From Christensenellaceae bacterium (lineage in GTDB: Bacteria; Bacillota; Clostridia; Christensenellales; Christensenellaceae): a stretch of 64,000 nucleotides of DNA. Location of the stretch: contig AP025580.1 of assembly GCA_022846035.1 (NCBI GenBank), positions 1,860,001 to 1,924,000 of the forward strand. The letters are read 5' to 3'. Positions 1 to 58,609 of the stretch are shown here, one piece after another. Under the pieces are notes generated by a model. That model was not told the origin of the DNA and made no database searches. It worked only from the letters and a program-made list of their open reading frames with translations. Every line of letters begins with the position of its first letter. The first letter of the stretch is position 1. A program made the translations under genes and the position numbers.

Positions 1-830
1 AGCGCCTTAGCCGCTTTTCTTCCTGCGCTGTCGTTATCAAAATGGATATGAATTTGCCGGATATGCGGCTTTTCTTCAAGGTATCGCACAAGGGCGGCGG
101 GGGTAGTGCTGTCCTCGATTTTCTCTTTCGGAAGGTAAACGCCCGCAAGGGAAACAAGGTTTTCCTGCCGCCAGTCCCTGCCGGACAGCTTGGAAAGTGT
201 TGCGTAGGAAAGCAGGTCAATGGCACATTCAAAAAGGTGTACCTCGCTGCTTGCACTGTCTGCTAACCGAAAAGAATAGTGCTTATCGCTGCCGGAGCAG
301 TCGCCCAAAATACGGCGGCTGTTGGTCGCACGGAAAGCGGCGTATTTCGGTTTTTGCTTTTCATCAAAGCCTACGAAAACAATGTTATGGTAGGGCAGGC
401 TCTCAAAGATAACGCCTTTTTTGATACATTCATCAGTAATTGTTCCGTCAATCCCTCTGCTAAAAAGGTAGTCCCTGATTTTATCGGTCGTTTTGCTTTT
501 TTCGGGCAGTAGGAGAATTTTCGGCTTTTCCTCCCGCTTTGGTCTGACGGTCAACGTAGGCATAACCGCCGCCTTGCCCATCAATGTCTCAACCGCCTCC
601 ACAAAAGAAATGCCCCTGACTTTCACAAGATAGTCAAGGGCGTTATATCCGCCGATCCGCTGCGACCACCACATCCATTTGCCGTTTGAAATCTTTAAGC
701 TGTCGTGGGTACGGGTAGTGTAGTTGTTGCCTGAAATCCGTACCAGCTCGTGCGGCTCACAGTTTTGCAGATAGGTCAAAAGGTCAATCTGCCGAGCCTG
801 CTCGATTACCTCCGGTGCTATATATGGCAC
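1..830 (-). CDS. Toprim/DUF3991-type ICE protein (3' end beyond window)
   Basis: About 276 codons are visible before the left edge cuts the gene. It reads as the same family as the complete gene at 54471-55433: an N-terminal DUF3991-like region (ISGNNYTTRTHDSLKIS, then a WMWW stretch) followed by a toprim-like core with a FECAIDLLSYATL acidic motif and an HFDNDSAGRKA Asp-x-Asp motif. Toprim folds bind metal and act on DNA in primases and topoisomerases. Here a role in processing or priming transferred DNA is inferred only. The start is GTG at 830, aligned with the ATG of the right-hand copy. It sits 4 bp after the DUF3848 gene, so the two are probably cotranscribed. Confidence 0.8.
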   Translation of the reverse strand, partial: MPYIAPEVIEQARQIDLLTYLQNCEPHELVRISGNNYTTRTHDSLKISNGKWMWWSQRIGGYNALDYLVKVRGISFVEAVETLMGKAAVMPTLTVRPKREEKPKILLLPEKSKTTDKIRDYLFSRGIDGTITDECIKKGVIFESLPYHNIVFVGFDEKQKPKYAAFRATNSRRILGDCSGSDKHYSFRLADSASSEVHLFECAIDLLSYATLSKLSGRDWRQENLVSLAGVYLPKEKIEDSTTPAALVRYLEEKPHIRQIHIHFDNDSAGRKAAKA

Positions 831-834
831 AAGA

Positions 835-1164
835 TCACCTGCTTTCTCTGCTTTTATCCCGCTTGAGTACATCATTTGCCCGTGTTTCAATGGAATCACG
901 GATGGTATCCATATGCTCCACTTCTCTGTCCCTAAACTCTTTATAGACATCATCAAGCGGACACGGGGAGCGTAGCAAAGCCTTTGCCTGTTTCGGAGAA
1001 AGCTCCATTTCTTCCATACACATCACGATGTCCTCTCTCATCGTGTACTCGTAGGTATGATTCAGAATTTCCTCCGGCGGCTGAGCAAGCAGCCAATCTC
1101 TGTACTTGTCCTGCTCGGCTTTCATCTTGTCGTAGAGCAGGGCGTTGTAGTCTGTTTCGCCCAT
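835..1164 (-). CDS. DUF3848 family ICE protein, intact copy
   Basis: A 109-residue, largely helical, charged protein of the DUF3848 type found in Tn1549-like conjugative elements. Function is unknown. The ATG at 1164 is preferred over the longer open frame because AGGAGGTG lies just upstream. Typical family segments are RDWLLAQPPEEIL near residue 25 and LLRSPCPLDDVYKEF near residue 62. It lies between the cargo cassettes and the toprim gene, presumably in one transcript with the latter. This copy has the complete N-terminus, which makes it the reference for the chimeric copy at 55438-56025, where the first ~47 residues are replaced. Confidence 0.8.
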   Translation of the reverse strand: MGETDYNALLYDKMKAEQDKYRDWLLAQPPEEILNHTYEYTMREDIVMCMEEMELSPKQAKALLRSPCPLDDVYKEFRDREVEHMDTIRDSIETRANDVLKRDKSRESR

Positions 1165-1188
1165 AAGCGAACACCTCCTTAAACAAAA

Positions 1189-1230
1189 ATATAGCCGCCT
1201 GATTTTTTCTAAAACCAAGCGGCTATGTAA
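1189..1230 (-). terminator. Hairpin repeat copy A, likely terminator of SnoaL cargo
   Basis: ATAGCCGC (1191-1198) pairs with GCGGCTAT (1219-1226). On the minus strand the stem is followed by ATTTTTG, which fits an intrinsic terminator for the cargo genes upstream. The 42-bp block is repeated at 2523-2564 with a single mismatch, far more than two unrelated terminators should share. Confidence 0.6.
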
Positions 1231-1369
1231 CGGTATTTGTTATTTGATAATGCCTTGCTATACTTGTTTGACGAACGCAATAAAGGTAAATACGTCCAGT
1301 TTTTTTATCATCTACTATATATTTCCTTTATTAAATTCGTGACAGAAATCTGCCACGATAATCAACATA

Positions 1370-1789
1370 TCAAAACCAATTTGCCTTTTCATCTCTAAAT
1401 CGAGGTTGATCGCCATATTGATACGGATTATAGTTATTACGGTTGCAGCCAAATTCTTTTAAAGACTTAATTTTGTTATCATCCGTCCACTCTACAAGTG
1501 AAATGCCGTCAAATTCTTCTACGCTTCCAGAATTCATTTCATTTTTGAAGTACCATTCCACGATAGTCTGATTACCTTTATGGAAAAACTGCTTAATGTC
1601 CCAAATAAGGACTTTGCCCCGTGTATTCCACTCATCAAACCAATGCTTAACAGTTTTTCGATCCTGATATTTTGGACTCCAGCTTTCTGTATAAACCACA
1701 TCTTCTGTAAAAATATCGTCTATGCCCAAGTTCTGTTGTTTCAGCCACATATCAAACCATTTACGGATAATGTTTTCCCTCTCATTCAT
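1370..1789 (-). CDS. SnoaL/NTF2-like small protein (cargo)
   Basis: A 139-residue protein with the pattern of the SnoaL-like/NTF2-fold superfamily: an N-terminal helix (ENIIRKWFDMWLKQQ), then Trp- and Tyr-rich strands (VEWYFKNEM, DGISLVEWTDDNKI). Such domains are often ligand-binding pockets or small isomerases, and no substrate can be named here. I chose ATG 1789 because an AGGT ribosome site lies about 8 bases upstream. Longer frames overlap the hydrolase stop. It follows the alpha/beta hydrolase directly, so the pair forms a two-gene cassette. It is not a conjugation gene and is not present in the equivalent interval of the right ICE. Confidence 0.65.
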   Translation of the reverse strand: MNERENIIRKWFDMWLKQQNLGIDDIFTEDVVYTESWSPKYQDRKTVKHWFDEWNTRGKVLIWDIKQFFHKGNQTIVEWYFKNEMNSGSVEEFDGISLVEWTDDNKIKSLKEFGCNRNNYNPYQYGDQPRFRDEKANWF

Positions 1790-1806
1790 TATTAAAAACC
1801 TCATCT

Positions 1807-2430
1807 CTATCTTTCTGCCCAAAAGTTTTGTAAAATACTGACCAACTCATTCGGATTATCTTTGTTGACTTCGTGACCGGAATCATCTACAATGACCAGC
1901 TTACTGTTTTTCATTGATTCGTGAAACCTCTTTGCGCTCTCCATATTCGTTTTATCCTTTGCACCGCAAAGAATAAGGGCAGGACACTCAAGTGCCGCCG
2001 ACTCCATAAAATTGAGATTAGCCATTGATTTGCTCAAACGAATAAAGTCTTTTTTACTTACGCCCATATTTTGAAATACAGATTTGGGCATAAACTTAAA
2101 CACAAAGTTTTGGAGCTTCAGAAATCCTTTAGGTATTTCATACGGCGTTCCAATCAGGACAAGAGAGTTTATTTTCTTCGGATGCTCAATAGCATAATTG
2201 AGCGCAAGCAATCCCCCAAGCGAAAGCCCACAAAGATTTAGTTTGTCTTTGAAAGACTCGCACAGCTCGCTAAACACCTGATATACTATGGGATAGTTTA
2301 ATTCCCTGCCTTTTGCAAGGTCAAATAAATCAGGAGCGATAGAGGAAATTTCCCTCGTTTCCAACTCGTTTTTAATGGTATCCCAATCCTTGCTGTTTTG
2401 TCCCAAGCCGTGAATCAAAATATTTTTCAT
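1807..2430 (-). CDS. Alpha/beta hydrolase (cargo)
   Basis: A 207-residue alpha/beta-hydrolase-fold enzyme. The oxyanion-hole region is near the N-terminus (ILIHGLGQ), the nucleophile elbow is GLSLGG, the probable acid is in CGAKDKTN and the catalytic His is in DSGHEV. There is no signal peptide, so it is cytoplasmic. The substrate cannot be predicted: esterase, lactonase and C-C hydrolase activities all occur in the family. I start at ATG 2430, behind GAGGT. A TTG six bases earlier is possible. It is transcribed from the conserved box at 2480-2521 together with the downstream SnoaL gene. Confidence 0.75.
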   Translation of the reverse strand: MKNILIHGLGQNSKDWDTIKNELETREISSIAPDLFDLAKGRELNYPIVYQVFSELCESFKDKLNLCGLSLGGLLALNYAIEHPKKINSLVLIGTPYEIPKGFLKLQNFVFKFMPKSVFQNMGVSKKDFIRLSKSMANLNFMESAALECPALILCGAKDKTNMESAKRFHESMKNSKLVIVDDSGHEVNKDNPNELVSILQNFWAER

Positions 2431-2479
2431 AGGCAAATAACCTCAGCTTTCTTGACATTGACTCTCAAAGAGCCACTTT

Positions 2480-2521
2480 ATTATATCACTTTACTCTGTC
2501 TTTTTCCACCATGCCGTGATA
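2480..2521 (-). promoter_or_regulatory. Cargo promoter box, copy 1 (extended -10)
   Basis: On the minus strand a TATCACGGC...GGTGGAAA block is followed after 14 bases by TGATATAAT, an extended -10 (TATAAT at 2480-2485), about 50 bases before the hydrolase ATG. The same block with the same 14-base spacing recurs upstream of the TIGR04076 gene. TATCAC and GTGATA form an inverted repeat across the element, suggesting an operator. Confidence 0.55.
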
Positions 2522-2522
2522 G

Positions 2523-2564
2523 ATATAGCCGCCTGATTTTTTGTAAAACCAAGCGGCTATGTAA
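2523..2564 (-). terminator. Hairpin repeat copy B, likely terminator of TIGR04076 gene
   Basis: ATAGCCGC (2525-2532) pairs with GCGGCTAT (2553-2560). The 42-bp block matches copy A at 1189-1230 in 41 positions. It lies just downstream of the TIGR04076 stop and abuts the promoter box of the next cassette. Confidence 0.55.
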
Positions 2565-2591
2565 AAGTTATTCAGTTCAACAAACTGGGAT

Positions 2592-2942
2592 TTATCTAAC
2601 GGGCGTATAACTGATTTTTGAGATTTCTTCTGTTGCTTCTAACTTGAAGATAACAGGTCTTAATCCGTCATTACAACTACAAATTGCAACACCGGGTTTT
2701 CTAATCCAATCTCCGTAATAAAATAAATCATTATCTGCTCCATGTGCCAAGGCAAACACATACTGATAAATAGCTTTCCATGCTTCATCACAAAAGCCTT
2801 CAGGTTTTGCGTAATCCGCATAGAATATCTGTCCCTCTTTCATCATTGGGCAAGCGGTTAATCCGACTGCCCCATATTCTTCAACTAATTCTTTGTCTAA
2901 AGTTGTTTTTAACACTGTGATTTTTACTTTTTTCACTGGCAT
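2592..2942 (-). CDS. TIGR04076 family protein (cargo)
   Basis: A 116-residue protein I recognise as the TIGR04076 family: KKVKITVLKTT at the start, then GLTACPMMKEGQ, EGFCDEAWKAIYQYVFALAHG and a FYYGDWIRKPGVAICSCNDGLRPV block with conserved cysteines. The family's biochemical role is unknown. The conserved Cys residues suggest metal binding or redox chemistry. It begins at ATG 2942 behind GGAAAGGA. It has its own promoter-like box (3022-3064) and its own 3' hairpin (2523-2564), so it is a self-contained cassette beside the helicase gene. Confidence 0.8.
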   Translation of the reverse strand: MPVKKVKITVLKTTLDKELVEEYGAVGLTACPMMKEGQIFYADYAKPEGFCDEAWKAIYQYVFALAHGADNDLFYYGDWIRKPGVAICSCNDGLRPVIFKLEATEEISKISYTPVR

Positions 2943-3021
2943 ATCGTCCTTTCCTGCAAATTTTTTCTTCCAACTTATCTCATATAAACGTTTTCATAAC
3001 TTCTAATTTGTTATTTTTAGT

Positions 3022-3064
3022 TATTATATCACAGCAATATGAAGATTTCCACCTTGCCGTGATA
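3022..3064 (-). promoter_or_regulatory. Cargo promoter box, copy 2 (extended -10)
   Basis: The minus strand reads TATCACGGC, GGTGGAAA, 14 unrelated bases, then TGATATAATAA (TATAAT at 3023-3028). This matches the box at 2480-2521 in both sequence and spacing. It lies about 80 bases upstream of the TIGR04076 start. Confidence 0.55.
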
Positions 3065-3070
3065 TGTAAA

Positions 3071-3096
3071 GGCGGTATGAGATTCTCCCATACCGC
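3071..3096 (-). terminator. Hairpin after the split helicase gene
   Basis: A perfect 8-bp stem (GCGGTATG/CATACCGC) lies just beyond the helicase stop at 3106. The following T tract is short, so termination may be weak. Confidence 0.5.
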
Positions 3097-3105
3097 AAAA
3101 AGAGG

Positions 3106-5492
3106 TTAGCGCTCATAAACCTTTGCTTTTGGAACAGGAAGGCTGTCGCCCTCGTCGGGCGCACCGTCCACAAGCTCATTTTCCCGTTTGTCCACATTGA
3201 GCAAACCGTTCAGGACATTGAGACGATTTGTTTTTTCGGTCAGTTCTTCTTCCTTATCAAATGGCTTTTCAACCTCTTTTTTCGCAGTTGCGAACTGCTG
3301 CTCGACATTTTTTAGCTCCTGTTTTTTCTCCTCCAGCCGTTCGGGGATTTTCTCAATGGCATTGTCGATTCGGGTGATGTTTCCCACAGCGTCCGTACCC
3401 AAAGAAACAGTACGGGTAATGCTGCCCTTGATTTTTACCTGATAAGCCTTTTCAAAAGGCTCAAAGGAAAGCTCCAAATCAAAGCCTCTGTACTTGCCGA
3501 GCGGGACAGGATCGGGAGAGGTCATTTCTTTGCAGGCGTCGATGATTTTCTGTCCGCCTTTTGCCTTTTCGGTATAAGAAACACCCTTGACCTCAATGCC
3601 GACAAAGGTATCGTCAAGAGGCTTCGGGTGTTCTTTTGCAATCAATATATCCTTTTCCAGTCCCGCAATCGTCTCTTTCGTCCGAGCGATTGTTTTCGGG
3701 TAGTATTTAATGATTTTATCCTCCAACTCGTATTTTTCAGACAGATAATTGGACTTCAAAAGCCGCAGTTTCTGCACTTGAATATCCAAATCCATCTTTT
3801 CCTTGATGTGCGGATTGTCCGCCGCAAGCATTTTAATTTCCGCATAGGAGAGGGCAGTAGCGTCCACATCTTCACAGGAACGCACGGGCGATTTGCTCGT
3901 CATAATCTGACTTGCAAACTTCTGCTTTCCCTCTACGAGCTGCCAGCAGTATGCGTCAAAAGTGCCTTCCGTAACATATCGGTACAAACCAACCTTTGGG
4001 TTTTCGTTGCCCTGCCGCACCGTCCGTCCGGCTCGCTGCTCCAGATCGGCAGGTCGCCACGGACAGTCAAGGTCGTGGGAAGCGATAATCTTATTCTGCA
4101 CATTCGTGCCTGCGCCCATTTTCTGCGTGCTGCCCATCAGGATTCGCACTTCGCCACGGCGCACCTTTTTGAAAAGCTCCTGCTTCTTCGTTTCGGTATC
4201 CGCCTCGTGGATAAACTTGATTTCCGATTCAGGAATACCTCGCTCAATCAGCTTCTTTCGTATGTCCGTGTAAACGGAAAACTCGCCTGCCGATTTTGGG
4301 GTGGAGAGGTCGCAAAAAAGAAGCTGCGTCAGCTTTTTATCGCTGTTTTCTTTCCATATACGGAACACTTCGTTTACGCAGGCGTTGACTTTACTGCCTT
4401 CCTCATCGGGCAGCATAGGATTCATCATTCGCTGGTCAAGAGCGAGTTTTCGCCCGTCGTTTGTAACTTTCAGCATATTATCCACGCTGGAATCCACACC
4501 GCCGCCCCTTATTTTTTCGGCTCGTTCGCCGAGAGAGACGACCATTTCTTTTTGTATCTGTGACGGCTTCACAGCGATATTGTGGTATTCCACTTCCGGT
4601 ACGGGAAGATCGAGCATATCCGCCGTTTTAATATCCGCCACTTCTTTGAACATCGCCATCAGTTCGGGCAGGTTATTGAATTTCGCAAAGCGTGTTTTTG
4701 CTCGGTATCCTGTTCCTTCGGGTGTAAGCTCCACCGCCGTAACCGTCTCGCCGAAGCTCGAAGCCCAAGCGTCAAAGTGCTGTAAATCGTGGTCTTGCAG
4801 CGTTTTGTACTGCAAATACCGCTGGATGGTATAAAGCTCCACCATACTGTTTGAAATCGGCGTACCCGTTGCAAATACAACGCCACGACCTCCGGTAATC
4901 TCGTCCAGATAGCGGCACTTCATAAAGAGGTCGGAAGATTTCTGCGCTTCCGTTTGGGCAATGCCGCCCACATTCCGCATTTTCGTGTAGAGATACAAAT
5001 TCTTATAGTAGTGAGATTCGTCGATAAAAAGACGGTCTATGCCCAGTTCTTCAAAGGTTACCACATCATCCTTTCTTGATTGATCGTTGAGCTTTTGCAG
5101 CTTTGTCTCCAGCGAACGCTTTGTCTTTTCAAGCTGTTTGACGGAAAAACGGTCGCCACGGTTGTGCTTCATATCCGCAATTCCTAAGACAATATCGTCA
5201 AGCTGCTGCTGCAAAACGGCTCTCTGCCGTTCAATGCTCATCGGGATTTTCTCAAACTGCGAGTGACCGATAATCACAGCGTCATAATCGCCTGTGGCAA
5301 TCCTGCCGCAGAAGCGTTTGCGGTTTTTCATCTCAAAATCTTTTTTGGTAGCGACCAAGATATTCGCCGCAGGATAAAGCTGCAAGAACTCCGCCGCCCA
5401 CTGCTCCGTCAGATGATTGGGTACAACAAAGAGGGATTTATTGCACAGTCCGAGCCGTTTTGACTCCATAGCGGCGGCGGTCATTTCAAAGG
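3106..5492 (-). CDS. Methylase/helicase, exon 2 (SNF2 helicase C-terminal part)
   Basis: This is the second exon of the giant gene whose first exon is 8289-14136. Removing the intron 5493-8288 joins AAG-A to CC, giving AAG ACC (Lys-Thr) of the Walker A motif. The total is then 8235 nt, or 2744 codons plus a stop. Exon 2 holds the superfamily 2 helicase core: FVVPNHLTEQW, a DEAH-like DRLFIDESHYYKN box, GTPISNSMVELYTIQRYL and a motif VI QRAGRTVRQGNE. A charged coiled-coil-like tail follows. Any in-frame start inside the intron 3' end would be an artefact. It parallels the intact right copy at 58610-64000 along its whole length. Confidence 0.85.
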
Positions 5493-5570
5493 ATAGCGAT
5501 AGGTAATCCTTTGGTCGGGATATGCAGCCGTAGGCTGCATATCCGTTCCTCCAGATTTTCCCCCGCTCCA

Positions 5571-5602
5571 AACCGTGCGTGACAGTTTCCCATCACACGG
5601 CT
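5571..5602 (-). ncRNA. Group II intron domain V
   Basis: On the minus strand the hairpin begins AGCCGTG and closes with CACGGTT around a GAAA tetraloop. The AGC triad and the bulge are typical of catalytic domain V. Domain VI and the 3' splice site follow toward 5493. Confidence 0.85.
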
Positions 5603-5654
5603 TTCCATCGTCAGCACTTTTTATGACGATCTATACATCAAACAGATTCACCCT

Positions 5655-7538
5655 TTAGAAAGCGAGTTCCGGCATTTCTGCCATCACACGAAGTTTGTTG
5701 AGTTTAGCCAACTGCTTTTTGTCTGGCTTTAACACTTCCAGATATTTTCGGATGGTACGCTCATTACTGGTATGGATGAGAATATGAACTACATCGGAAA
5801 CAATAATCAGGTTTTGGTAGCTATCATTACCACCCAACACCAACGGCTTTTTGTGGTGACAGTCCACCTGATTTGCTTCCAGTTCCACACCGGACACTGC
5901 ACATTTCCCTTTCTGCGCAACATGGAGCGCAATGCGGTTGTCGTTATACTCCACACTCTGCTTACCGCACGGGTTATTCATCAGGTGATAGAGCACTGCC
6001 ATATTGACGCCTACAAGATTCTTATGAATCTCAACCCGTCCTTCTGGCGTGTACTTGTTTACCCGACTTTTCTTGTCCATGGGTACTCTATGCTGAACAT
6101 AGGCAATCGGGACGATGGCGTGACCGTTCAGATAACGCACCTCCCGGCTTGTGCCGTACTTTTCCTTAATATACCTGTTTGTGATTTGACCGTTCTTTTG
6201 CAGTCTGTGCTTTAATCTGTTGTAAAGGCTCTTTTTGACATCGAAAGCGATTTTATGAAAGTCGATATTCACATGAGTTGCTATGCTGTAATAGTTATGA
6301 ACGCCTATGACATAGGAGTTGTACTTCTGTATCAGACGATATTCCATTCCAGGGTCATAGGTCTGCCGTATCTGCCCAATGATTTCTTTGCTTTTTTCCC
6401 GGATTTTCAGCAATGCCTTATCCTTGATATGCGCTTCTACTACATACCGCGGCTGTCCATCTGGCTTTTTCCCCTTTGTTCGGACTTTCAGCTTAAAGCC
6501 CAGAAACTCCGAGTAGTGGCGTTTCAGGTTCACGATTTTTGACTTCTCCGGGCTGATTTCCAGTCCCAGACGATCCAAAAGCCATTGTTTTGTCGCCTCA
6601 AACAGCTTGACTGCATCTGACCGCTTTTTGCAGAAAATTTTAAAATCGTCTGCATAGCGGACAACATAGCATTCTTTCAGATTCGTGTAGCTGCGCAGGG
6701 TACGGATGGTACTGCTTTTGTCTGGAGTTCCGTTTGCATATACCCTGTGTACATAGTTCCTGTGGGTGGGCATTTCTTCCCATTGGTTGACAATCCACCA
6801 GTCCAGTTCATTCAGGACGATGTTTGACAGCAGAGGGGAAATGATACCGCCCTGCGGCGTACCTTTTTCGGGGAAGCCGATTCCTGCCACCTCTGTCTTT
6901 AGCATGGCAGAAATGATGGACAACAGCTTTTTATCCCGGATGCCGAGCGTCCACATCTGTTTCAGCAGTTTTCCGTGGTTCACATTGTCAAAGAAGGACT
7001 TAATATCTATATCAATGACATAGTGACAACCGACGTTCTGTATCATTCTTTCTGCTTGGGCGATGGCATTTTCCGCACTGTGGTTTGGTCTGAAGCCATT
7101 GCTGCGCTTGAAGAATTTTGCTTCACAGATAGGTTCTAATACTTGCAGAATACATTGCTGAATGAGCCTGTCCATAATCGTAGGGATTCCGAGAGGACGG
7201 GTTTTTCCGTTATCCTTTGGAATTTCCACTCTGCGGACAGCATTGGGAATATACCAGTCCAGCTTGCGCTGAACATGGGCAACCAAGGCATTTTCGTTCC
7301 ATTTGTTCAAATCACTTATTGTCTTGTTATCCACGCCCGCCGTCCGACTGCCGCTGTTTTTTCGGATATTTCTATATGCCAGCTTGATGTTTTCAGGACG
7401 CTGTATCAGTTCCACGAGATTGCAGAACCGCTGCCCCTTGACACTTGCGGCATACAGTTCATCGAAAACGAGCTGCATATCGTAGTATTCGGAGTTGCGG
7501 ATTTTCTGTTTCTTTAAGGGTTTCTTCTTGTTAGCCAA
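5655..7538 (-). CDS. ltrA: Group II intron reverse transcriptase/maturase with HNH endonuclease
   Basis: A 627-residue multifunctional intron protein. The reverse transcriptase domain covers about residues 40-370, including RPLGIPTIMDRLIQQ, GTPQGGIISPLLSNI and the catalytic YADD at about 295-298. A maturase/thumb region follows. The C-terminal HNH domain (from about residue 560) has C-x2-SGVELE, a CHHKKPL motif and a terminal His-containing helix. It promotes splicing of its own intron RNA and retrohoming by target-primed reverse transcription. All RT and HNH motifs look intact, so mobility is plausible. Confidence 0.95.
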   Translation of the reverse strand: MANKKKPLKKQKIRNSEYYDMQLVFDELYAASVKGQRFCNLVELIQRPENIKLAYRNIRKNSGSRTAGVDNKTISDLNKWNENALVAHVQRKLDWYIPNAVRRVEIPKDNGKTRPLGIPTIMDRLIQQCILQVLEPICEAKFFKRSNGFRPNHSAENAIAQAERMIQNVGCHYVIDIDIKSFFDNVNHGKLLKQMWTLGIRDKKLLSIISAMLKTEVAGIGFPEKGTPQGGIISPLLSNIVLNELDWWIVNQWEEMPTHRNYVHRVYANGTPDKSSTIRTLRSYTNLKECYVVRYADDFKIFCKKRSDAVKLFEATKQWLLDRLGLEISPEKSKIVNLKRHYSEFLGFKLKVRTKGKKPDGQPRYVVEAHIKDKALLKIREKSKEIIGQIRQTYDPGMEYRLIQKYNSYVIGVHNYYSIATHVNIDFHKIAFDVKKSLYNRLKHRLQKNGQITNRYIKEKYGTSREVRYLNGHAIVPIAYVQHRVPMDKKSRVNKYTPEGRVEIHKNLVGVNMAVLYHLMNNPCGKQSVEYNDNRIALHVAQKGKCAVSGVELEANQVDCHHKKPLVLGGNDSYQNLIIVSDVVHILIHTSNERTIRKYLEVLKPDKKQLAKLNKLRVMAEMPELAF

Positions 7539-8288
7539 AGTCAGGTACTTTCCTCCTTATGAGAGGATTTCGCTTTTCTTAGTCATACTCGAACCTTTGT
7601 GTCTGTATAGTTTTCAATTTATTGATTGCTGACGACTAATGGCCATCCCTCCGCCGTGTTTCTACGGCTTCATCGGTACTGTGCCATCTCTCTCAACTGG
7701 ATAAAGGATTGTTATACGCAAGGCGATTTCCAATCCAACACCTCATAGCCTGTAACCGGCTCCGTGTTCCAGCCTTTCCACGTTCCAATATTCCTATCTG
7801 TACATATCTGCCCTTAGGTGTCCCTCTGAGCCTGTATGCTGGGCGATGCCTGTAACACCGCAAGGACTTTCATAGTAAAAATTCTTACTCATCCTCACAT
7901 ACTTCCGTAATCGGAAAGGAACATTTCTGCTCCTGCGCCTTTTAGACCCGTACATTCGGGATTTCGTCAGTCATCCATGACATTCTGACCATAGGCAGTT
8001 TATAGACCTCCGGCGTATCATACGCATACCTCACCTCTGAGGCACTTTTCACAGCTTGACCTGTTTGGGCATACTTCCGCCGACTTTGGCGAGCGTTACA
8101 CCGCAGCCCCTGTTACATAGAGCTGCCGCATATCGCAGTTTGTAAGGTAGGCGTTTCAGGGCGTTACCCCATCATTCCACCTATCAGAATATTAGTTCTC
8201 CAAGTCTGTTTCAGGGACTCCTTTCCAGTTCCCAATTCTATTGTTAGCTGACTTGTGCGTAACCTTTTCAGTTACGAACGTGTCGCAC
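7539..8288 (-). ncRNA. Group II intron RNA domains I-IV upstream part
   Basis: There are 750 nt without a credible protein between the intron 5' end and the maturase start. The position and size match the ribozyme domains I-III plus the proximal part of IV. Exon-binding sequences should lie here but were not assigned. Confidence 0.75.
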
Positions 8289-11200
8289 TCTTGCCTGCAC
8301 CCACGGCGTGCGCCAAGAGGGTGTTGCCGCCGTAAAGGATATGGGCGACCGCATTTTTCTGATGTTTCCGAAGCTCAATTTCAGGATTCATACCGCTGAA
8401 AACAATATGGCTCCCATCATACTCACGGGGACGGATACTGTTGAACTTGTCGTTATACAGCCGCACCAGCTTTTCCCGTCTTGCCGGATCACGCCACACC
8501 CAGTCCTGAAAGCCCTGCTTGATAAGCTCCTGCTTGGATTGAGCGATAGCGGTTTCCTTTTTATTGAGAACAGCTTTCTTTTTCCCCTCATCGTCCTCGA
8601 TATAGTCGAAAACACGAACATCTTTCATATTGAGCGTTTCTTCGATAATCTTGTAGGCGTTTACCCGTTTTGTGCCGTAGGTGTTGTAGGCTTTCAGATT
8701 GCCACGGTCATAGGATTTACCCTCTACATTCCATTCGCCCGTCAGTTTCGAGTAGTGGACTTTGATGTTCCACCTCGCATAAACGGGTGTATCCAAAAAC
8801 TCGTACATAAACTGCTGTGCGATTTCTTCCGGCAGCCAAGTCGTGCCGAGCTGCACGAAAATCTCGCTGGCGGTCAGGTCTTTCGGCTGCACCTTTTCCA
8901 GCGCCTCCACATTGATTTTGTAATCTTCGGGATAGACTTCGGCGGATTTTTTCGCCCAAGCGAGCTTTTCCCGCACATTGCCGGAGAGATATTCGTCCGC
9001 CATCAGGTACTTTTGCTCATCGCTGTTGCCGTAGCCGTACATCGGGTTTAGGAAAATAACGTCCTTCAATTCCTCGTAGATTTCCTGCTCAGGCTTGCCT
9101 GTAAGGGAACACATATATTCCATATCCACGCACGCTTTTTCTCCCATAGATACGGCAAGCGCCTCACTGGCGGTATCCACCGAAGTAACGGGGGTGTGCG
9201 GTTTGATCGTCCGTTTTGTGAACATATCCGCCTTGCGCTCCAGCTCGCCGTTTTCGTCCAGCACCTCCAGTGCGGAAAGCAGGGCAAAGGAGCTGTCCTG
9301 CGAAAAAGCGGATATATTCGCACGGGAATTGATCAGTCCGTATTTCTTAGAGAAGGTGTCGTAAAGCGTATTGAGCTTTTGTTGTTCTCTTTCGACTTCA
9401 TAATCGGGATAACCTGCGGTCTGCATTTCAATCAGACTGCGAACGCTGTCCCGTATGGCAATCATACCCTTAATGCGGTTTTCCGCCGTAGCCGAACACT
9501 CTACCGGAGCCATTCGGGAGTTTTCACGGTAATAAATCTTATCGTCCACAACCGTATAGGAAAAGTTGCGGACTTCAGGATCGGCTGGAATAGAGTTGTC
9601 TTCTTCGGTCAGTTCCTCGTCCAGCTCATAATCGGTAATCTCGGCGTGGATATTGGAAATCGCTTCGTCCAAAAGCGCCGAAAGGTCAGCGTTCTCATAG
9701 GGTACGACCGTGTTTTCCTCACCGAATCTACCGGATACGGTTTTCCAAACGCCCAGTACCATTTCTGGGTGATCGACAAAATAGGAATTCATTTTTACAC
9801 CGTTTTCATCGGTATTTAAGTGTACCCAATCCGGCTCAAGGTCGATGAGCCTGTCCCGTTTTTGCAAAATGAGAATATCCGAAACGACCTCCGTTCCGGC
9901 GTTTCCCTTAAAGGTGTTGTTCGGCAGACGGATTGCGCCGAGTAGATCGGCTCTCTGTGCGATATACCTCCGCACGGCGGGATTTTCCTTATCCATCGTG
10001 CCTTTGCTTGTAATCAGCGCCATCACGCCGCCCGGTCTGAGCTTATCCAGCGACTTCGCAAAAAAGTAGTCGTGGATTAAAAAATTATGCTTGTTATACC
10101 TTCTGTCATTGACTCGAATATCCCCAAACGGCACATTGCCGATTACAGCGTCAAAAAAGCTGTCGGGAATCACCGCTTCCTCAAACGGCTGCGCTGCTAT
10201 CGAGGTTTTCTGGTAAAGCTGCTGTGCGATCCCCGCCGAAATCTTATCAATCTCCACGCCGTAAATCTTGCTGTCTTTCATCGTATCGGGCAGCATACCG
10301 ATAAAATTGCCGATCCCGCAGGACGGCTCTAAGATGTTGCCCTCCTTAAATCCCATCTGCTCCATTGCCTTGTAGATCGAGGAAATGACAACAGGCGGGG
10401 TATAGAAAGCGGTCAGGGTGCTTGCCCTTGCGCTTTCGTACTCATCGGGTGAAAGGGCGGCGTAAAGCTCGGTAAACTCGTCCGCCCACGAGGAATTATT
10501 TTCGTCAAAGGCTTCGGGAATACCGCCCCAACCGACATACTGCGAAAGGATTTCCTGTTCTTCGGGCGTCGCAAAGCGGTTCTCAAACTCACATTCTTTC
10601 AGTACCCTGATAGCCTCCATATTCCTGCGGAAGCGTTCTTTTTTCCCTGCCTCCGGCACCTCGTGGGAAGCAAGGTCAAAGGTGTGCCGCTCGGACATAG
10701 GCACATCAGGGTGCAGATCAAAACTCTGTACCCGTGGGCGCTTCGGCTGCTTAAACGCAGGCGTTAGCGGCTCCGCCTCTTGATTTTTTATTTCAGGCGG
10801 ATTGTCAGGCGTATCTTGCTTTGCCCGTTCCACATAAAGCCATTCGGCAGCTTCCTTTTCGGAAACAGATTTCTTGACCTGTTCCAAGTAGTCGTTTGCC
10901 TGCCACTCGCTCTTAAACTCCTCGCTGACGCCCTCGTCGTCGATATAGATCGCTTCCGTCAAATCGTCCCAAATAGCATAGCCTTCATCGGTTTCAATGA
11001 CGAAAAATCTCTCGTCGGGCGGGAGTGTATTTTCTGCCGCAATCTGCTCCGCCTGTCTGAGCATTTCATCTGCTCTATCGTTTGCAAGATAGGGAGAATC
11101 CATGATTTCTATGCCCTGCGGCGGCGGATCAAGATGTTCGGCAAAATCCCGTGATATGGTATTGCCTTCCTTGTCTTTATAAAAAATTACCTTGAAAGGC

Positions 11201-22807: not shown

Positions 22808-22935
22808 CTCCGGCTTTACCTCCTTTCATAGATTTCACAGCCTGCCTCAATAAGAGACGGCTATGTAAAGACCGCAGTATTTGTTCTCAACGCCCCCTGC
22901 GGAAAGCGATTCACTTTGTACGGGAAGCGCTAAGG

Positions 22936-23645: not shown

Positions 23646-25046
23646 TTATTTTCTCTGTTCTTTTCTCCACTCGAAAAACCTCTGCCGGATAAACGCTGTA
23701 TCTTCATCTTCATTCGAGGTTATGAAAATATGTAAGCTGCGAAACGCCTTTTTGATTTTCATAGCGAAGTCGATTTCGCTGCTTTCTAATGTATATGGGA
23801 TTTTAATCAGTTTGATCTCCCGTTTCCTGCAAAGGTATGCTTTCAAGGTTTCTACATTCTCTGTCTGACTAACCGTTTCAATCACTGCTTTTTCTTCAGG
23901 CAAATACATTTCAAGCGGTATGCCGATAATCTTATCCGTATCCGTCTGTACCTTTATGCGCTTCTTCGCTGCATAATACATAACAGCCAGCTTCGGAAAA
24001 ACCGTCAGATAGTCTTTTTCGCACACCTTACAACCTTTTCCTTCAATCGTTCTTTCTGAAACTTTTGCTTTCCAAGAATGTCCAAGTGAACATTTCCACC
24101 ACACGCTCTGCATTGAGTGCCTTGATATTTTGTTTGGGGAAATATCTTTGTTCTTTTCGTAGTCCCATTCCGAAAGAAGATGTGCGTCCGTCGTTGCTAA
24201 ATCATTATACCCTTCCATAACCGCCCGATCCGCACAAACAGGGCATACCGTTCCTTTTACACGAGAATAGACAACAGACTGCCACTCATACCCGCACTCT
24301 CTACACTTCCACCAGACATTTCTGTGGGACTTTTCGTTTATCATATCAGGCGTAAGGGGCAGATTCCGATCCGACCATTCCTGTGCAAGCTGAGGGTGTG
24401 TCGTAGCGAAATCATTAAATCCTTTCAGCAGAAGTTGACCGCTGCAATAAGGGCACCCGCTTCCGCCTGAACGAGTGGAAATGAGGGTGTTCCATTCGTG
24501 ACCTTTGCTGCACCGCCACCACACTTTCCGATTTGCAAAAACTGTAACCATATCAGGCTTTAGCGGATAATTTCTTTCAGACCATTCAGAAGCGATTTCA
24601 GGGCGCTGTGAGGCAAGATCATTAAATCCAACTAAAATTTTATTATGAGAGCAATACGGGCAGCCTGTGCCGCTTATAGCCCTGCTTTTAACCGTTGCCG
24701 TCCATTCGTGACCATATTTATCTTGCCAAATCACTTTCTTATGAGAGCCTATTGTTACCATTGTCGGTTTTAGCGGATCGTTCTTACTCGACCATTCATC
24801 AGCCAGCTCCGGCTTCAGCGTTGCCAAATCATTGATACCCACTATCACTCTTGCACCTGAGCAGATTGGACAGTTTTCGCCGTTTGAACGAGCCTTAACA
24901 CTCGTCTGCCATCTGTGACCGCAAGCGCCTTTCCACCAAACTACTTTGTTTGAGCCATATGTAATCTTGTCAGGTGTAAGCGGAAGATTTTTATCCGACC
25001 ACTCTGAAATAAGCTCAGGATGTACCTCTGATAAAAGATTGCTCAT
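23646..25046 (-). CDS. Five-repeat zinc-ribbon protein with degenerate nuclease-like tail (copy 1)
   Basis: 466 residues. Residues ~1-345 are five tandem repeats of ~69 residues of the probable zinc-ribbon (PF14311/DUF4379) type. Each has a P-E/H-L-x-x-EWS start, L-x-P-D-x-x-T, a VWWKC-x-x-GHxW motif and a CPxCS knuckle. The tail (~residues 350-466) has IPLEMYLPEEKAVIETVS and LKAYLCRKREIKLIKIPY. This resembles the strand-helix pattern of Vsr-like endonucleases, but the usual acidic active-site residue is not in place. I infer a nucleic-acid-binding protein, possibly an inactive nuclease. Ribosome site GAGGAGGGG. The IS110 element lies directly upstream. Confidence 0.75.
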   Translation of the reverse strand: MSNLLSEVHPELISEWSDKNLPLTPDKITYGSNKVVWWKGACGHRWQTSVKARSNGENCPICSGARVIVGINDLATLKPELADEWSSKNDPLKPTMVTIGSHKKVIWQDKYGHEWTATVKSRAISGTGCPYCSHNKILVGFNDLASQRPEIASEWSERNYPLKPDMVTVFANRKVWWRCSKGHEWNTLISTRSGGSGCPYCSGQLLLKGFNDFATTHPQLAQEWSDRNLPLTPDMINEKSHRNVWWKCRECGYEWQSVVYSRVKGTVCPVCADRAVMEGYNDLATTDAHLLSEWDYEKNKDISPNKISRHSMQSVWWKCSLGHSWKAKVSERTIEGKGCKVCEKDYLTVFPKLAVMYYAAKKRIKVQTDTDKIIGIPLEMYLPEEKAVIETVSQTENVETLKAYLCRKREIKLIKIPYTLESSEIDFAMKIKKAFRSLHIFITSNEDEDTAFIRQRFFEWRKEQRK

Positions 25047-28724: not shown

Positions 28725-30146
28725 TCAATATTTTCCGTTCAGTTCACAAACATTTCGATTTTTCCATTCTAAAAACCTCTCTCGAAGCACTTGAACATCG
28801 TGCTCGGAATCCGTATGGAGGTAGATATGATTGCGGATAAATAGCGTTTTGATTTCCGCCGCCATTTGCGAAGTATCCGTAGTTCTTTTAATAAGGTAGT
28901 AACTCAGCCGGTTACTTTGACATATGTGAGCTTTCACGCTTTGCTCTCTTTTCTCTGTCACGGTTGCTCCGGCAATATCGACCGCACAATGTAATTCAGG
29001 GAGGTATGCAACAAGTCGCATTCCAAGCTCCGAGTCGCTATTGCTTTTGACCGTAATGCCGTTCTGTGCTCCATACATCATTATCAGCATCTGCGGGAGA
29101 GCCTGTTGAAACTCCGCTTCACATTGAGGGCAACCCTTTTGCTCAATAGTTCTATCTGTGATTTTGGCACGGTAAGAGTGTCCTGCCCCGCATTTCCACC
29201 AAACGACCTTCATTGAGTTTCTCGATACATTGCTCGGTGTCCACTTGGCGTTCTTTTCATAGTCCCATTCTGAGAGTAAGTGAGGATCAGTTGTTCCAAA
29301 ATCATTATAGCCTTGCAGAACGGCTCTCTCAGCACAAACAGGACACATACCGCCTTTGACCCGTGCTTTGACGACGGCTTTCCATTCATAGCCGCAGGTA
29401 TTGCATTTCCACCAAACATTCTTAGTTGACTTCTCATTGACCGCATCGGGAGTTAACGGCAGGTTTTTATCCGACCACTCTATGGCAAGCGACGGGAACT
29501 TCGTTTGCAGGTCATTAAAGCCTTTGAGTAGCTTTATCCCACTACAATAGGGACACTGACTTCCTCCTGCACGGGTTGAAATCAATGTGTTCCATTCGTG
29601 ACCCAAGTGACATTTCCACCAAACTTTAATATTCTTGAAAGCCGTAACCTGATCCGGCGTCAGCGGAAGATTGCGCTCTGACCACTCCGCAGCGATTTCA
29701 GGGAAACGGCTTGCCAAGTCGTTGAAGCCCGGTAGCACAAAGTTGTGTGAGCAGTAGGGACAACCCGTACCGTTCACCGTCCGGCTTTTCACGGATGCCG
29801 TCCATTCGTGTCCGAGCTTGCACTGCCATATTACCTTCCTGTGCGTAGCCGCTGTAATCATCGACGGTCTTAGCGGCTCATTCTTGGGCGACCATTCCTT
29901 CGCAAGCTCAGGGAACTTACTTTCAAAGTCGTTATAACCTCGAAGCACCCTCGCTCCCGAACATATTGGACATTGCTCGCCTGCGGAGCGAGCTTTAATG
30001 CTTGTCTGCCATTCGTGACCGCAAACCCCTTTCCACCACACAGTTTTATTAGACCCAAAGGTCACTGTATCAGGAGTCAACGGGAAGTTCTTTTCTGACC
30101 ATTCTGATACAAGATGCGGTCGCATCCTGCTTAAACTATTCTCCAT
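28725..30146 (-). CDS. Five-repeat zinc-ribbon protein with degenerate nuclease-like tail (copy 2)
   Basis: 473 residues, paralogous to 23646-25046. Five ~69-residue PF14311-type repeats each carry an EWS start, a VWWKC-x-x-GHxW motif and a CPxC knuckle. A ~120-residue tail follows, with LGMRLVAYLPELHCAVDIAG and HICQSNRLSYYLIKR, again like a Vsr-type fold with altered acidic residues. ATG 30146 has GGAG nine bases upstream. An ATG five codons earlier is possible. It sits between integrase and presumed element end, the usual place for accessory cargo. Its partner lies at the matching side of the neighbouring ICE. Confidence 0.75.
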   Translation of the reverse strand: MENSLSRMRPHLVSEWSEKNFPLTPDTVTFGSNKTVWWKGVCGHEWQTSIKARSAGEQCPICSGARVLRGYNDFESKFPELAKEWSPKNEPLRPSMITAATHRKVIWQCKLGHEWTASVKSRTVNGTGCPYCSHNFVLPGFNDLASRFPEIAAEWSERNLPLTPDQVTAFKNIKVWWKCHLGHEWNTLISTRAGGSQCPYCSGIKLLKGFNDLQTKFPSLAIEWSDKNLPLTPDAVNEKSTKNVWWKCNTCGYEWKAVVKARVKGGMCPVCAERAVLQGYNDFGTTDPHLLSEWDYEKNAKWTPSNVSRNSMKVVWWKCGAGHSYRAKITDRTIEQKGCPQCEAEFQQALPQMLIMMYGAQNGITVKSNSDSELGMRLVAYLPELHCAVDIAGATVTEKREQSVKAHICQSNRLSYYLIKRTTDTSQMAAEIKTLFIRNHIYLHTDSEHDVQVLRERFLEWKNRNVCELNGKY

Positions 30147-30214
30147 ATCTGAACGCTCCATTTCTCATTACTGCTTATAGTATAATTTCCATCCTCAGTT
30201 TTGAGAAATGTGCG

Positions 30215-55437: not shown

Positions 55438-56025
55438 TCACCTGCTTTCCCGGTGCTGTTTCTTCTCCTGCCGTTGCAGGCTCTTATCCGCTTCCGTTTC
55501 GATGGAGTCCCGGATGGTATCCATATGCTCGGTTTCTCTGTCCCGGAACTCCTTATACACATCACTCAGAGGACAAGGGGAACGAAGCAAAGCCCTTGCC
55601 TTTTCCGGCTCAAGCTCCAGCTCCTCCATACACATTATCCGCCCACTCGTTTTCACCAGCGTGCCGCGGAAAGCAACGATGGCCTTTCCGTCCGGCTTGA
55701 CAAAACAGATGGCTTTCGTTTTTCCCGCGTCTCCGCCGTGCATGGCGGTACTCTCTCTGTCAATTTTCAGGGAGCAAAGGTTCGGATTATTCTTCATGCT
55801 CTGGATCATGGCAGCCCACTCATATCCACTCGTCAAGCCGCCGTCAACCGTCTGATCGCCGCATTGTATCAGCTTATCCATGACCTCCGGTGTGAATTGA
55901 TCCAGCATCTGTCCGACCGTTTTATAGCTGGCAATATCCAGGTCTTTTCCGATGGCTTCTCTGAAATTACTGTCAATATATGTCAAGTTTTCGAGCAGGA
56001 GGAGTTCTTCTACTGATATATCCAT
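55438..56025 (-). pseudogene. Chimera: truncated lipase-like N-terminus fused to DUF3848 tail
   Basis: 195 codons, open. Residues 1-130 look like the start of a Mbeg1/DUF2974-type lipase-fold effector (LLLENLTYIDSNFREAIGKDL, then AICFVKPDGKAIVAFRGT, the usual KAIVVFRGT strand). It stops before the GxSxG nucleophile. From residue 131 (MCMEELELEPEKARALL) it is the C-terminal ~65 residues of DUF3848, matching the intact copy at 835-1164 from its residue 48. The junction is near 55635. Both halves are incomplete, so neither enzyme nor normal DUF3848 activity is expected. Confidence 0.8.
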
Positions 56026-56063
56026 GCTATCACTCTTTTCTGTTCAAAACATCTTTCATTCTC

Positions 56064-56891
56064 TCAGACGATATCCACCGTCCCGCCTGTGCTCACCGTG
56101 CAGTGATATTGCAGCGTATATGTGTCCTCATTCAAATAGCTGTACTGATTGAATTCGGAGATTTCCTCCAATTTTTCCGAAGATTCCACCAACGTCACCA
56201 GATGGTCGCCGGAGTAACCATTTTCCGCACACCACGCACCGAACGCTTCGCAGAATTCTTTCATTTTTTCATCCGTCAGATTCAGATAAAAGTAAATATG
56301 ACAGCTTCCGCTGCAGTTTCCGGCGATCTTTCCGGCTGCCGCGTCATCCGTGCTTTCGAGCGTTGTTTTTACGGAATCCGGCCCGATGACCAGCACATTT
56401 CCCGACTGAAAATAGTCCTTTACATATTGCGCAATTGCTTCCTCATAATAAGGACGCACATATACTCCGATATAATTATCCGTAAACGTTCCATTTTCGT
56501 TATAACCCGCCGGACGCACCGTAACGATGTCCCTGCTGGAGGAACCGCCGCGAGGGTACACGGACAGCCACTCGGTATCAAAATAGCCCGCCGAATACTC
56601 CAGATAGCGGAACTCCACGCCGGGGTATTTTTCATCCAGATAGCACAGCATCTTTTCCATACGGCAAATCGCGCGCTTCTGCGTCTGTGTCAATTTGTCG
56701 TATTCCTGCGGCAGGTTCTCCTTTTTCAGAATCTCCCGCTGGCGCTCGGAGAGCTCCAGATGCTCCGGCGGTAAGTCCAGTCTGTTTGTCTTTGTATCCT
56801 CACGGTTATCCATTCTTCCGCTGCACCCCCATAATCCAAATAGGATAAGCCCTGCGCAGAAAAGCGCAAGCACTTTTTTATAATATCTCAT
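56064..56891 (-). CDS. Lipoprotein of the inserted cassette (possible immunity protein)
   Basis: 275 residues from ATG 56891 behind GGGAGGT. The lipoprotein signal MRYYKKVLALFCAGLILFGLWGC anchors Cys23. A charged linker follows, then RAICRMEKMLCYLDEKYPGVEFRYLEYSAGYF and a mixed alpha/beta domain rich in Tyr and Gly (GVYVRPYYEEAIAQYVKDYF, CSGSCHIYFYLNLTDEKMKEFCEAFG). I do not recognise the family. It sits between a WXG-like fragment and a truncated lipase, where immunity lipoproteins of secreted toxins are often encoded. Function is inferred from position. Confidence 0.65.
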   Translation of the reverse strand: MRYYKKVLALFCAGLILFGLWGCSGRMDNREDTKTNRLDLPPEHLELSERQREILKKENLPQEYDKLTQTQKRAICRMEKMLCYLDEKYPGVEFRYLEYSAGYFDTEWLSVYPRGGSSSRDIVTVRPAGYNENGTFTDNYIGVYVRPYYEEAIAQYVKDYFQSGNVLVIGPDSVKTTLESTDDAAAGKIAGNCSGSCHIYFYLNLTDEKMKEFCEAFGAWCAENGYSGDHLVTLVESSEKLEEISEFNQYSYLNEDTYTLQYHCTVSTGGTVDIV

Positions 56892-56934
56892 CGCGTCAAT
56901 ATACCTCCCTTCGTTCGCCCGACCACAGGTGCTG

Positions 56935-57087
56935 TCAACCCTTCCAGTCCTTTGCCGCACCGTTATCCGCCTGTTCAAACAGCAGGCTACCGGTTCGGAT
57001 GGCCTGTGCCGTCCTTTCAAACAGCTCTGCCATCGCCTCACCGAGCTTCTGCATATCTTCAGCGGCAGTCTGAAGCTCCTGCACCAT
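56935..57087 (-). pseudogene. C-terminal fragment of a WXG100/T7SS-chaperone-like protein
   Basis: The last 50 codons (VQELQTAAEDMQKLGEAMAE, then LFEQADNGAAKDW) form one amphipathic helix like the end of small type VII secretion partner proteins. The frame continues upstream into the hipA-like gene sequence, so the true 5' part is missing. The call is weak because helical fragments are easily matched. Confidence 0.4.
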
Positions 57088-58543
57088 TGCGCCCCTGGAG
57101 CTTGAAAGGGAAAGAGACAGCGTTCTGCAGCGAACCTGCCGGCTCATTTTTGCGCTTTGTATTTCTCTGAACCGGAATGGAGAGCAGCTCTCTTGTACGC
57201 TCTCCAAGTTGTTTTTCAATGGCTGTCAGCCGTTCTTCCGGCAAATTGAGGGACGGATGACGGGTGAACTTGAAGTCCACCATTCGCCGCAGCTGCGCTT
57301 TCTGCTTTGCACCCATTACCTCTTTGCACACATCCTCATAGGAAATGCGGTAGGGATTGGAACGGGTCTTTGCATACGCACTCAGGTTCTTGAAATCATC
57401 CGGCATTGCATAGTTGAACAGCGACAAGCCGTTATCGAAGATGGGTGCAGGGGCGATAATTTCACCCGTGTGATTGTTCCGCAGCAAGCCGAAGTTGCCG
57501 AAGTGTCTGTCCTCGTTGTAAATCAGGGCATCGAAAACCAGCATACTGCAAAGCTGCTCGTAGAACTCGTCGCCCAAGGTCTTGTAGTAATCCAGGCAGG
57601 CTTTCAGCGTCGTCTTGCGGAGAATACGCCCGATAGGGACGAAAGAGGTATCAATATCCGTGAACAGCCGGCACTTGGAAGCAAGAATGCCTTTCCAGTT
57701 TTCCAAGTCGTACTGTACGCAGCCGATGCCCATCTTGTCTGCGATCTGACAGGCATAATACTCGCTGTACGGCTCGTTTCCGGTGTTCGCAGCACCCTCC
57801 GTGCCGCCCTTATACAGATAGATGCCGTCGCCCTCCACAAAGCGCCAAGCCTTCCGCAGCATACCGTTGGTAGTCAGCTCCGGTGAGGTGGAGAATGCCT
57901 CCCGACTGCCGCCAACGCCGGTATAAGCCACCAGTGACAGCGCTTCGGAGAAGCGGTTTTCGTAAAGGTTGTAATCGGCATACTTGCCGTCAAAGTCGGC
58001 GGGGACGACCCAATAGCTGTCGTTGAGGGACAGCCCCATACAGACATCAATGATGCCCTTCGTGTTGTTTACGCTCAGCCCCAGCGTCTTTAAGATTTCA
58101 TCTACAAACTGCCGGTTCTTCGGAATCACCCGTCGTTCCAGCCACTTCACAACGCCCTCGTTTGTCAGCTCCAAGTCGAGGGGAAACAGCTTTTGCTTTG
58201 CCGTTTCGGTGTGAAGAATTGTCGCCTGCAAGCCCTCCAAGCCTCTTTCCTCCAGCGTGAAGGTCAGCAGTGTTTCATCATAAAGGCGCAGGCTATATAC
58301 TTTTTCCATTGTGCTGCTCCTTTCCTCAAGCATTACGGACACATCCTTGTCAAGTGCCTCTGCGATCTTGAGCATCAGGTCAAGGGAGAGGTTTTGCGTT
58401 CCTTTTTCAATGCGGCAGATGTTGGAACGCTGGGTTCCGATGCACTTTGCAAGCTGCTCCTGCGACAATCCTTTTTCCAGTCTTGCCTGCGTCAGCTTCT
58501 GCACAATGCTTTGCCTTGCCGCCAACAGTTCCTTTTCGGTCAT
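57059..58543 (-). CDS. HTH-HipA-like kinase fusion, altered C-terminus
   Basis: 494 residues from ATG 58543 (GGGAGGG upstream). Residues 1-70 are an XRE helix-turn-helix (LTQARLEKGLSQEQLAKCIGTQRSNICRIEKGT). From residue ~78 (MEKVYSLRLYDE, with its own internal GGAG site) it is a HipA-type Ser/Thr kinase: CMLVFD-like helix, LIYNEDRHFGNFGLL catalytic loop and APIFDNGLSLF metal site. HipBA pairs are normally two genes, so this is a fusion or a gene with internal start. The last ~20 residues run into the foreign cassette and are probably not native. Confidence 0.8.
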   Translation of the reverse strand: MTEKELLAARQSIVQKLTQARLEKGLSQEQLAKCIGTQRSNICRIEKGTQNLSLDLMLKIAEALDKDVSVMLEERSSTMEKVYSLRLYDETLLTFTLEERGLEGLQATILHTETAKQKLFPLDLELTNEGVVKWLERRVIPKNRQFVDEILKTLGLSVNNTKGIIDVCMGLSLNDSYWVVPADFDGKYADYNLYENRFSEALSLVAYTGVGGSREAFSTSPELTTNGMLRKAWRFVEGDGIYLYKGGTEGAANTGNEPYSEYYACQIADKMGIGCVQYDLENWKGILASKCRLFTDIDTSFVPIGRILRKTTLKACLDYYKTLGDEFYEQLCSMLVFDALIYNEDRHFGNFGLLRNNHTGEIIAPAPIFDNGLSLFNYAMPDDFKNLSAYAKTRSNPYRISYEDVCKEVMGAKQKAQLRRMVDFKFTRHPSLNLPEERLTAIEKQLGERTRELLSIPVQRNTKRKNEPAGSLQNAVSFPFKLQGRNGAGASDCR

Positions 58544-58565
58544 ACAAAACCCTCCCTTCCTATCC

Positions 58566-58600
58566 ATTATAATGTTATCATATATGATAACGATTGTCAA
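58566..58600 (-). promoter_or_regulatory. Promoter and 18-bp palindromic operator of the HTH-HipA gene
   Basis: GTTATCATATATGATAAC (58574-58591) is a perfect palindrome. On the minus strand TTGACA (58595-58600) precedes it. With 17-bp spacing TAACAT is the -10, and a TATAAT (58566-58571) lies slightly further downstream. It is a probable autoregulatory operator for the HTH domain. Confidence 0.75.
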
Positions 58601-58609
58601 GGGGTTCGG

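Follow-up and report, generated by a model that had tools for sequence, protein, structure and literature searches.

The interval between the SNF2-helicase gene and the DUF3848 gene of an ICE in a Christensenellaceae bacterium is probably a cargo hotspot equipped with a conserved, built-in expression frame. This interval, hereafter named the slot, lies in a 64,000-nt stretch of DNA (the window), and its contents vary or are absent among related ICEs. The recurring frame reads hairpin 1, TACATA, box, cargo, TACATA, hairpin 2 and DUF3848. On the minus strand of the window, the SNF2-like helicase part is followed by hairpin 1, TACATA, box B1, a TIGR04076 gene, an inner copy of hairpin 2 and the bases ATC, and then by box B2, a hydrolase gene, a SnoaL_2 gene, an outer copy of hairpin 2 and the DUF3848 gene (Table 1), whose ATG lies 24 nt past the outer 42-nt hairpin unit. 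An earlier note on this DNA had described the same box upstream of both cassettes, two 42-nt hairpins identical at 41 of 42 positions, a hairpin and a box that adjoin, and unrelated cassette genes. All four observations were reproduced, hairpin and box adjoining at 2478-2564 and TIGR04076, Abhydrolase_1 and SnoaL_2 being unrelated families. In gene order the frame extends further left: hairpin 1 and the left TACATA also belong to it, as do the TACATA copies at the two copies of hairpin 2.

Table 1. Features of the slot and its two neighbouring genes (positions in the window).
Feature	Position	Strand	Remarks
3' part of the ICE methylase/SNF2-helicase gene, left slot neighbour	3106..5571	-	Helicase_C, SNF2-rel_dom
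Hairpin 1, GCGGTATG...CATACCGC, then short T-run	3072..3096	-	absent from terminator-scan list
Left TACATA	3063..3068	-	2-base overlap with box B1
Box B1, promoter-like	3021..3064	-	10/12
Cargo 1, TIGR04076 family protein	2592..2942	-	116 aa
Hairpin 2, inner copy	2523..2564	-	TACATA at 2563-2558; without T-tract
Box B2	2478..2521	-	linked to inner hairpin by ATC
Cargo 2a, alpha/beta hydrolase	1807..2436	-	Abhydrolase_1; ATG at 2430 as in L037
Cargo 2b, SnoaL_2-domain protein	1370..1822	-	SnoaL_2; start codon uncertain
Hairpin 2, outer copy	1189..1230	-	TACATA at 1229-1224; T-rich tail, terminator-like
DUF3848 gene, right slot neighbour	835..1164	-	

Judged from its sequence, the gene set around the slot fits an ICE. 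Genes for a relaxase (MobA/VirD2-type), a coupling protein, a VirB4-like ATPase and a Tn916-type integrase are found 1.5-35 kb past the window edge, and the transfer genes and the integrase all lie on the DUF3848 side of the slot (L158, L159). A group II intron with a reverse-transcriptase ORF (5493-8200, minus strand) lies inside the methylase/SNF2 gene and splits off its 3' part from the remaining gene. Both intron ends match Rfam, and at gathering thresholds the intron is the sole match in window positions 1-9000. A second group II intron protein is encoded amid the transfer genes of the same ICE (L158, 9175-11007, minus strand). The window also carries a second methylase-SNF2 gene with a slot of its own (55438-63904, minus strand), without TACATA or frame, which holds an HTH gene with a weak HipA_C match, a 325-aa ORF and an ORF ending in a C-terminal DUF3848 part; L115 looks like this second slot. 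Two proteins that are probably related (23646-25046 and 28725-30161, minus strand), each with five DUF4379 zinc-finger stretches, are encoded close to a MerR-type gene and a Tn916-type integrase.

Both boxes of the window have the form TATCACGGC-NN-GGTGGAAA-N14-TGATATAATAA on the minus strand. Box B1 corresponds to TGGAAA-N17-TATAAT, with TG before the -10 and arms TATCAC/GTGATA. The box core has two matches in the window, both exact even when three mismatches are allowed (chance mean 0.15), a count reached in 1 of 100 shuffles. The 42-nt hairpin likewise has two matches (chance mean 0.00). BLAST of the whole genome (2,768,446 bases, one contig) with the 111-nt joint returned nothing but the joint and the outer hairpin; box 1 was not among its matches, so this search is insensitive for boxes. 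A relaxed box pattern gave distinct matches in the slot only (160 sequences, 864,804 bases, overlaps included), a pattern that the divergent boxes of L110 and L041 (its first) escape. Among the relatives described below, the box follows the left TACATA in L038, L039 and L040 as in the window, and a divergent form does so in L041 and L110. In L037 it is present only behind the inner hairpin, the first cassette having none, and no box is recognisable in L111 and L122. A box match in L003 from the family search was set down to chance, its bases lying inside an L18-like ribosomal-protein gene.

The arms of the box follow the pattern ATAxCAC/GTGxTAT, in which the x pair is T/A in the window, L037 and L038, C/G in L039 and G/C in L040. 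These differences across loci look like co-change. Exceptions are the first L041 box and the L110 box, which are asymmetric, and the L040 arms, which are 21 nt apart and not 26. The dyad could be either an operator or a hairpin. Frpo of the F plasmid is a single-strand promoter; a box of this type was considered and dropped, as the -35 would lie in the loop and the arms have 7 bp. The suggestion in the earlier note that unrelated cargo shares its regulation is plausible, given the common promoter-like box, which the first cassette of L037 does not have.

That note had also called the hairpins terminators. This fits the outer copy of hairpin 2, the only one listed by the intrinsic-terminator scan (1226-1191), but not the inner copy, which is followed by ATC and a box with no T-tract. 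Because the T-run is short in hairpin 1 and absent from the inner hairpin 2, transcript insulation by these two is doubtful. For sixteen copies of hairpin 2, taken as 64-nt stretches, folding energies range from -16.5 to -31.4 kcal/mol. In an alignment of 15 copies, pairing is kept in 91.6% of cells vs 85.6% in shuffles. Two-sided changes occur at 4 of 16 pairs and covariation exceeds all 500 shuffles, scores that kinship of the copies can inflate and that include two visibly misaligned rows (L122, L043).

TACATA-hairpin units were also seen outside the slot. At window position 22859 (minus strand), TACATAGCCG precedes a possible small hairpin, a ribosome-binding site and then an ORF (22807-21977). 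In L060 and L082, the unit lies behind another gene, at about 760-820, as a large palindrome whose arms carry TTTACATAG and CTATGTAAA, behind the genes following DUF3848. In L017 (G267), TACATA-hairpin 2 stands directly before a toprim-like gene (1533, minus strand) with no DUF3848 between, and an unknown ORF and a DUF6664-like ORF lie upstream. The genome of L038 has two further copies 40-50 kb off, one behind LytTR and DUF3021 genes and one before a DUF3848-like ORF. A lone hairpin 2 was found in G310 behind a flavin-reductase-like gene.

A single DUF3848 scan of genome contigs yielded nine loci, eight of which have the SNF2 end upstream; in L042 it was not found within 8 kb. The first cassette within like borders is a TIGR04076 gene in the window, a DUF6664 gene in L037 (Blautia glucerasea) and another hydrolase gene in L038, and the SNF2 ends of these three are 87-93% identical. 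In L037, the DUF6664 gene is followed by a hydrolase and a SnoaL-like gene, a cassette homologous in DNA to that of the window, and by genes for a GNAT and a Vat/CatB-like acetyltransferase (250 bits vs a curated cut-off of 300). The slot can therefore hold candidate drug-resistance genes. L038 continues with a remnant of the window-type hydrolase gene and an HTH/zinc-ribbon gene. The slot of L039 (that of L008 in G261) encodes a 256-aa protein without family, meaning no match at 0.001 in Pfam, PADLOC or NCBIfam, that of L040 a DUF6664 protein and a 321-aa protein without family, and that of L041 an AlbA/HATPase protein and a 191-aa protein without family. A degenerate copy of the SNF2 end with hairpin 1, TACATA and box precedes the second L041 gene (4285-4392), as if the start of the slot had been duplicated or imported. 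In L043, L044 and L045, the SNF2-DUF3848 spacing is 114, 38 and no nt, respectively.

BLAST matches were also obtained in 34 of 391 genomes of the class sample, many of them short. Five loci were inspected (L008, L009, L010, L011, L017) and the frame is present in G261. DUF3848 relatives occur in four plasmid and four phage records, and hairpin matches in two plasmid records. One of these, a Vescimonas plasmid (L102), has hairpin 2 before a partial DUF3848; its order is an HTH protein (weak HipA_C match below cut-off), a hairpin 1-like repeat, LytTR, DUF3021, TACATA-hairpin 2 and the partial DUF3848, and part of the translation reads as an SNF2 tail. A scan of the Subdoligranulum plasmid stretch with a hairpin match showed no frame. 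On viral contigs, three pattern scans gave no matches and the DUF3848 scan no relative. A Vescimonas SnoaL gene (82% DNA identity) lies among conjugation genes without box, TACATAGCC or hairpin 2, so that the SnoaL gene also moves without the frame.

The distribution of the frame was then surveyed in 81 DUF3848 rows (80 with L070, which is the L039 genome, counted once), sampled unevenly since families had been picked for earlier matches in them. The succession hairpin-TACATA-cargo-TACATA-hairpin 2 is found in the window, in L037-L041 and in the distant L110, L111 and L122, whose DUF3848 proteins show 38, 33 and 56% identity (SNF2 is out of view in L111). L043 has both hairpins and one TACATA without cargo, L132 has hairpin 1 and TACATA without cargo, and L152 has a hairpin, one TACATA and a hairpin 2 behind an NYN-domain gene. 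TACATA occurs in 15 rows, namely 14 with hairpin 2 plus L132. The frame is thus scattered across very divergent DUF3848 members. Most of the surveyed DUF3848 loci are without frame or cargo, as in 52 rows the SNF2-DUF3848 junction is at most 82 nt long and free of TACATA. A junction of at least 400 nt without frame was seen in five rows: L135, L139 and L156 carry other ORFs, so cargo can occupy the slot without the frame, and the long gaps of L143 and L151 look like unaligned SNF2 tails. Nine rows were not assessable.

Comparison of the closest relatives locates the points of divergence. The window and L037 are 89.1% identical over 2.4 kb and diverge directly behind hairpin 1-TACATA (position 3063); homology resumes at 2573, 10 nt ahead of the next TACATA, with the TIGR04076 gene vs the DUF6664 gene in between. 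L037 and L038 (93.0% over 1.7 kb on the left and 94.9% over 8.4 kb on the right) also diverge behind hairpin 1-TACATA, and homology returns 1 nt before TACATA. The window and L038 share the box too, and homology returns about 15 nt before TACATA. The inner hairpin-ATC-box joint and its leader are homologous in all three elements, with a joint identity of 93.0% for L037-L038 and 93.7% for window-L038; for window-L037 it falls within a 1352-nt block at 90.8%. The hydrolase remnant of L038 indicates that its ancestor had the same second cassette and, together with the homologous joint, points to one two-cassette ancestor that was altered later. The two extra genes of L037 start some 20 nt ahead of the outer TACATA, and the change in L038 is internal to the hydrolase gene. 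The neighbourhood of the window is a mosaic, as its DUF3848 is nearest to that of L037 (93.3%; L039 88.8%) but its toprim gene is nearer to that of L039 (80% over 826 nt) than to that of L037 (72% over 247 nt). The earlier note had proposed gene swapping that uses the control elements as homology. The swapping is supported by the different genes inside the same borders in related ICEs, with three first cassettes, but the role given to the control elements is not: kilobase flanks at 80-95% identity suffice, and two rearrangements break beside or inside cargo genes.

In relatives without cargo, the SNF2 and DUF3848 genes mostly abut or overlap, which suggests that they form one operon. In the lineage of the window, the cargo site is bounded on the left by hairpin 1, TACATA and usually the promoter-like box, and on the right by TACATA and hairpin 2. 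We propose that the unrelated genes between these borders have been exchanged among ICEs, presumably through homologous recombination in the flanks. In an integrated ICE, cargo transcription would start from the box, and a hairpin 2 with T-tract would end the cargo transcript ahead of the transfer genes. As a terminator-like hairpin 24 nt before DUF3848 would cut the operon, polymerase read-through would be needed; DUF3848 might be reached by simple read-through, or the whole element might use antitermination as Tn916 does. The two cassettes shared by the window, L037 and L038 probably date from one event that fused hairpin 2 to a second box, the first cassette being replaced afterwards in different ways.

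Alternatively, TACATA and the hairpins could be a recombination or capture site, with cassettes passing between TACATA copies through an enzyme or short homology and the frame serving as the substrate. TACATA does flank cargo on both sides in the window, L037-L041, L110, L111 and L122; close elements diverge at the hairpin/TACATA marks; L043 shows what a precise loss would leave, and L132 keeps hairpin 1-TACATA cargo-free. However, no recombinase gene was recognised inside the scanned slots, the rearrangements of L037 and L038 lie off TACATA, conserved borders may reflect function and not recombination, and slots with a single TACATA may be ancestral. We therefore consider a capture site unlikely. 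Its fullest form, a dedicated capture-and-exchange site constituting a cassette system distinct from integrons, in which cassettes are expressed by the box, are stackable through the joint and leave one TACATA upon loss, is doubtful to a slightly greater degree.

A further possibility is that hairpins and TACATA together regulate the ICE operon at the RNA level, as an attenuator or antitermination target before DUF3848 that cargo merely tolerates. The cargo-free L043 retains hairpin 1, TACATA and hairpin 2, the covariation of hairpin 2 extends to loci whose DUF3848 proteins are as little as 33% identical, and there is no space behind it for a separate DUF3848 promoter. The element is nonetheless absent at the short junction of the 52 rows mentioned above, and the Rfam search of window positions 1-9000 matched the group II intron alone; this reading also appears improbable. 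If a unit of box, gene and hairpin had simply been duplicated in tandem within this one ICE, with no exchange of genes, the direct order of box and hairpin and the near-identity of the hairpins would be accounted for, but the cassette genes are unrelated, the same joint stands with other first cassettes in L037 and L038, and the inner hairpins of the three elements are closer to one another in the variable loop than to their own outer copies. The module is not confined to the window either: the joint recurs in L037 and L038, and L039, L040 and L041 have box and hairpin 2 but no inner joint. As the joint with its leader is one shared homologous unit beside differing cargo, separate tandem duplications do not explain it, and we regard such an origin as very improbable. 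Integron cassettes are unrelated genes with an imperfect hairpin behind each, as in the row seen here; attC-like cassettes are hardly credible in the slot, as both window cassettes carry a promoter-like box of their own, the hairpin keeps to a single ICE border across elements and no integron integrase was recognised among the scanned slot and neighbour proteins.

With the expression frame of an ICE hotspot as the preferred reading, the slot can be set beside known systems. A moron, in the classical definition, is a promoter-gene-terminator unit; in the window, the box is promoter-like (10/12) and the outer hairpin alone scores as a terminator. Phage morons and accessory loci are described as genes added between operon genes (PMC7067206). 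The genes added here, with promoter-like and terminator-like sequences between operon genes, resemble them, but lie in an ICE, in a single slot, and with the same promoter and hairpin for different genes. Hotspots of the SXT/R391 ICEs, which are mosaic elements, have identical borders, with few exceptions, around differing cargo (PMC2791158). The window family similarly holds differing cargo in the same backbone site of related ICEs; both borders are constant, except in distant relatives without frame, and some relatives are cargo-free. In contrast to SXT/R391, its borders are hairpins, a common TACATA and a promoter-like box, the joint holds a second cassette, and both host phylum and ICE family differ. 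Tn916 has terminators T1-T3 and canT, and processive antitermination lets its transfer operon be read (PMC11658703); the slot, by analogy, would place a terminator inside an ICE that needs read-through of its transfer operon. Methylase-SNF2 polyvalent proteins have been described for Tn1549-like ICEs, in a source whose covered part makes no mention of the slot (PMC5512222). The ICE of the window is likened to these by gene content, namely the methylase/SNF2 protein, relaxase, coupling protein, VirB4-like ATPase and Tn916-type integrase.

In the literature searched, DUF3848 was not mentioned, and the titles and abstract openings held no published description of the frame. As far as this search goes, the box and hairpin frame, the one hexamer at both borders and the joint holding a second cassette are new. 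On the preferred reading, the slot belongs to a known kind of cargo hotspot and stands out for the clarity and reuse of its control sequences. The succession hairpin 1-TACATA-box together with TACATA-hairpin 2 provides a signature with which cargo can be found and compared in conjugative elements of gut Clostridia, and the slot offers a testable case of how an ICE may express cargo without cutting its transfer operon.
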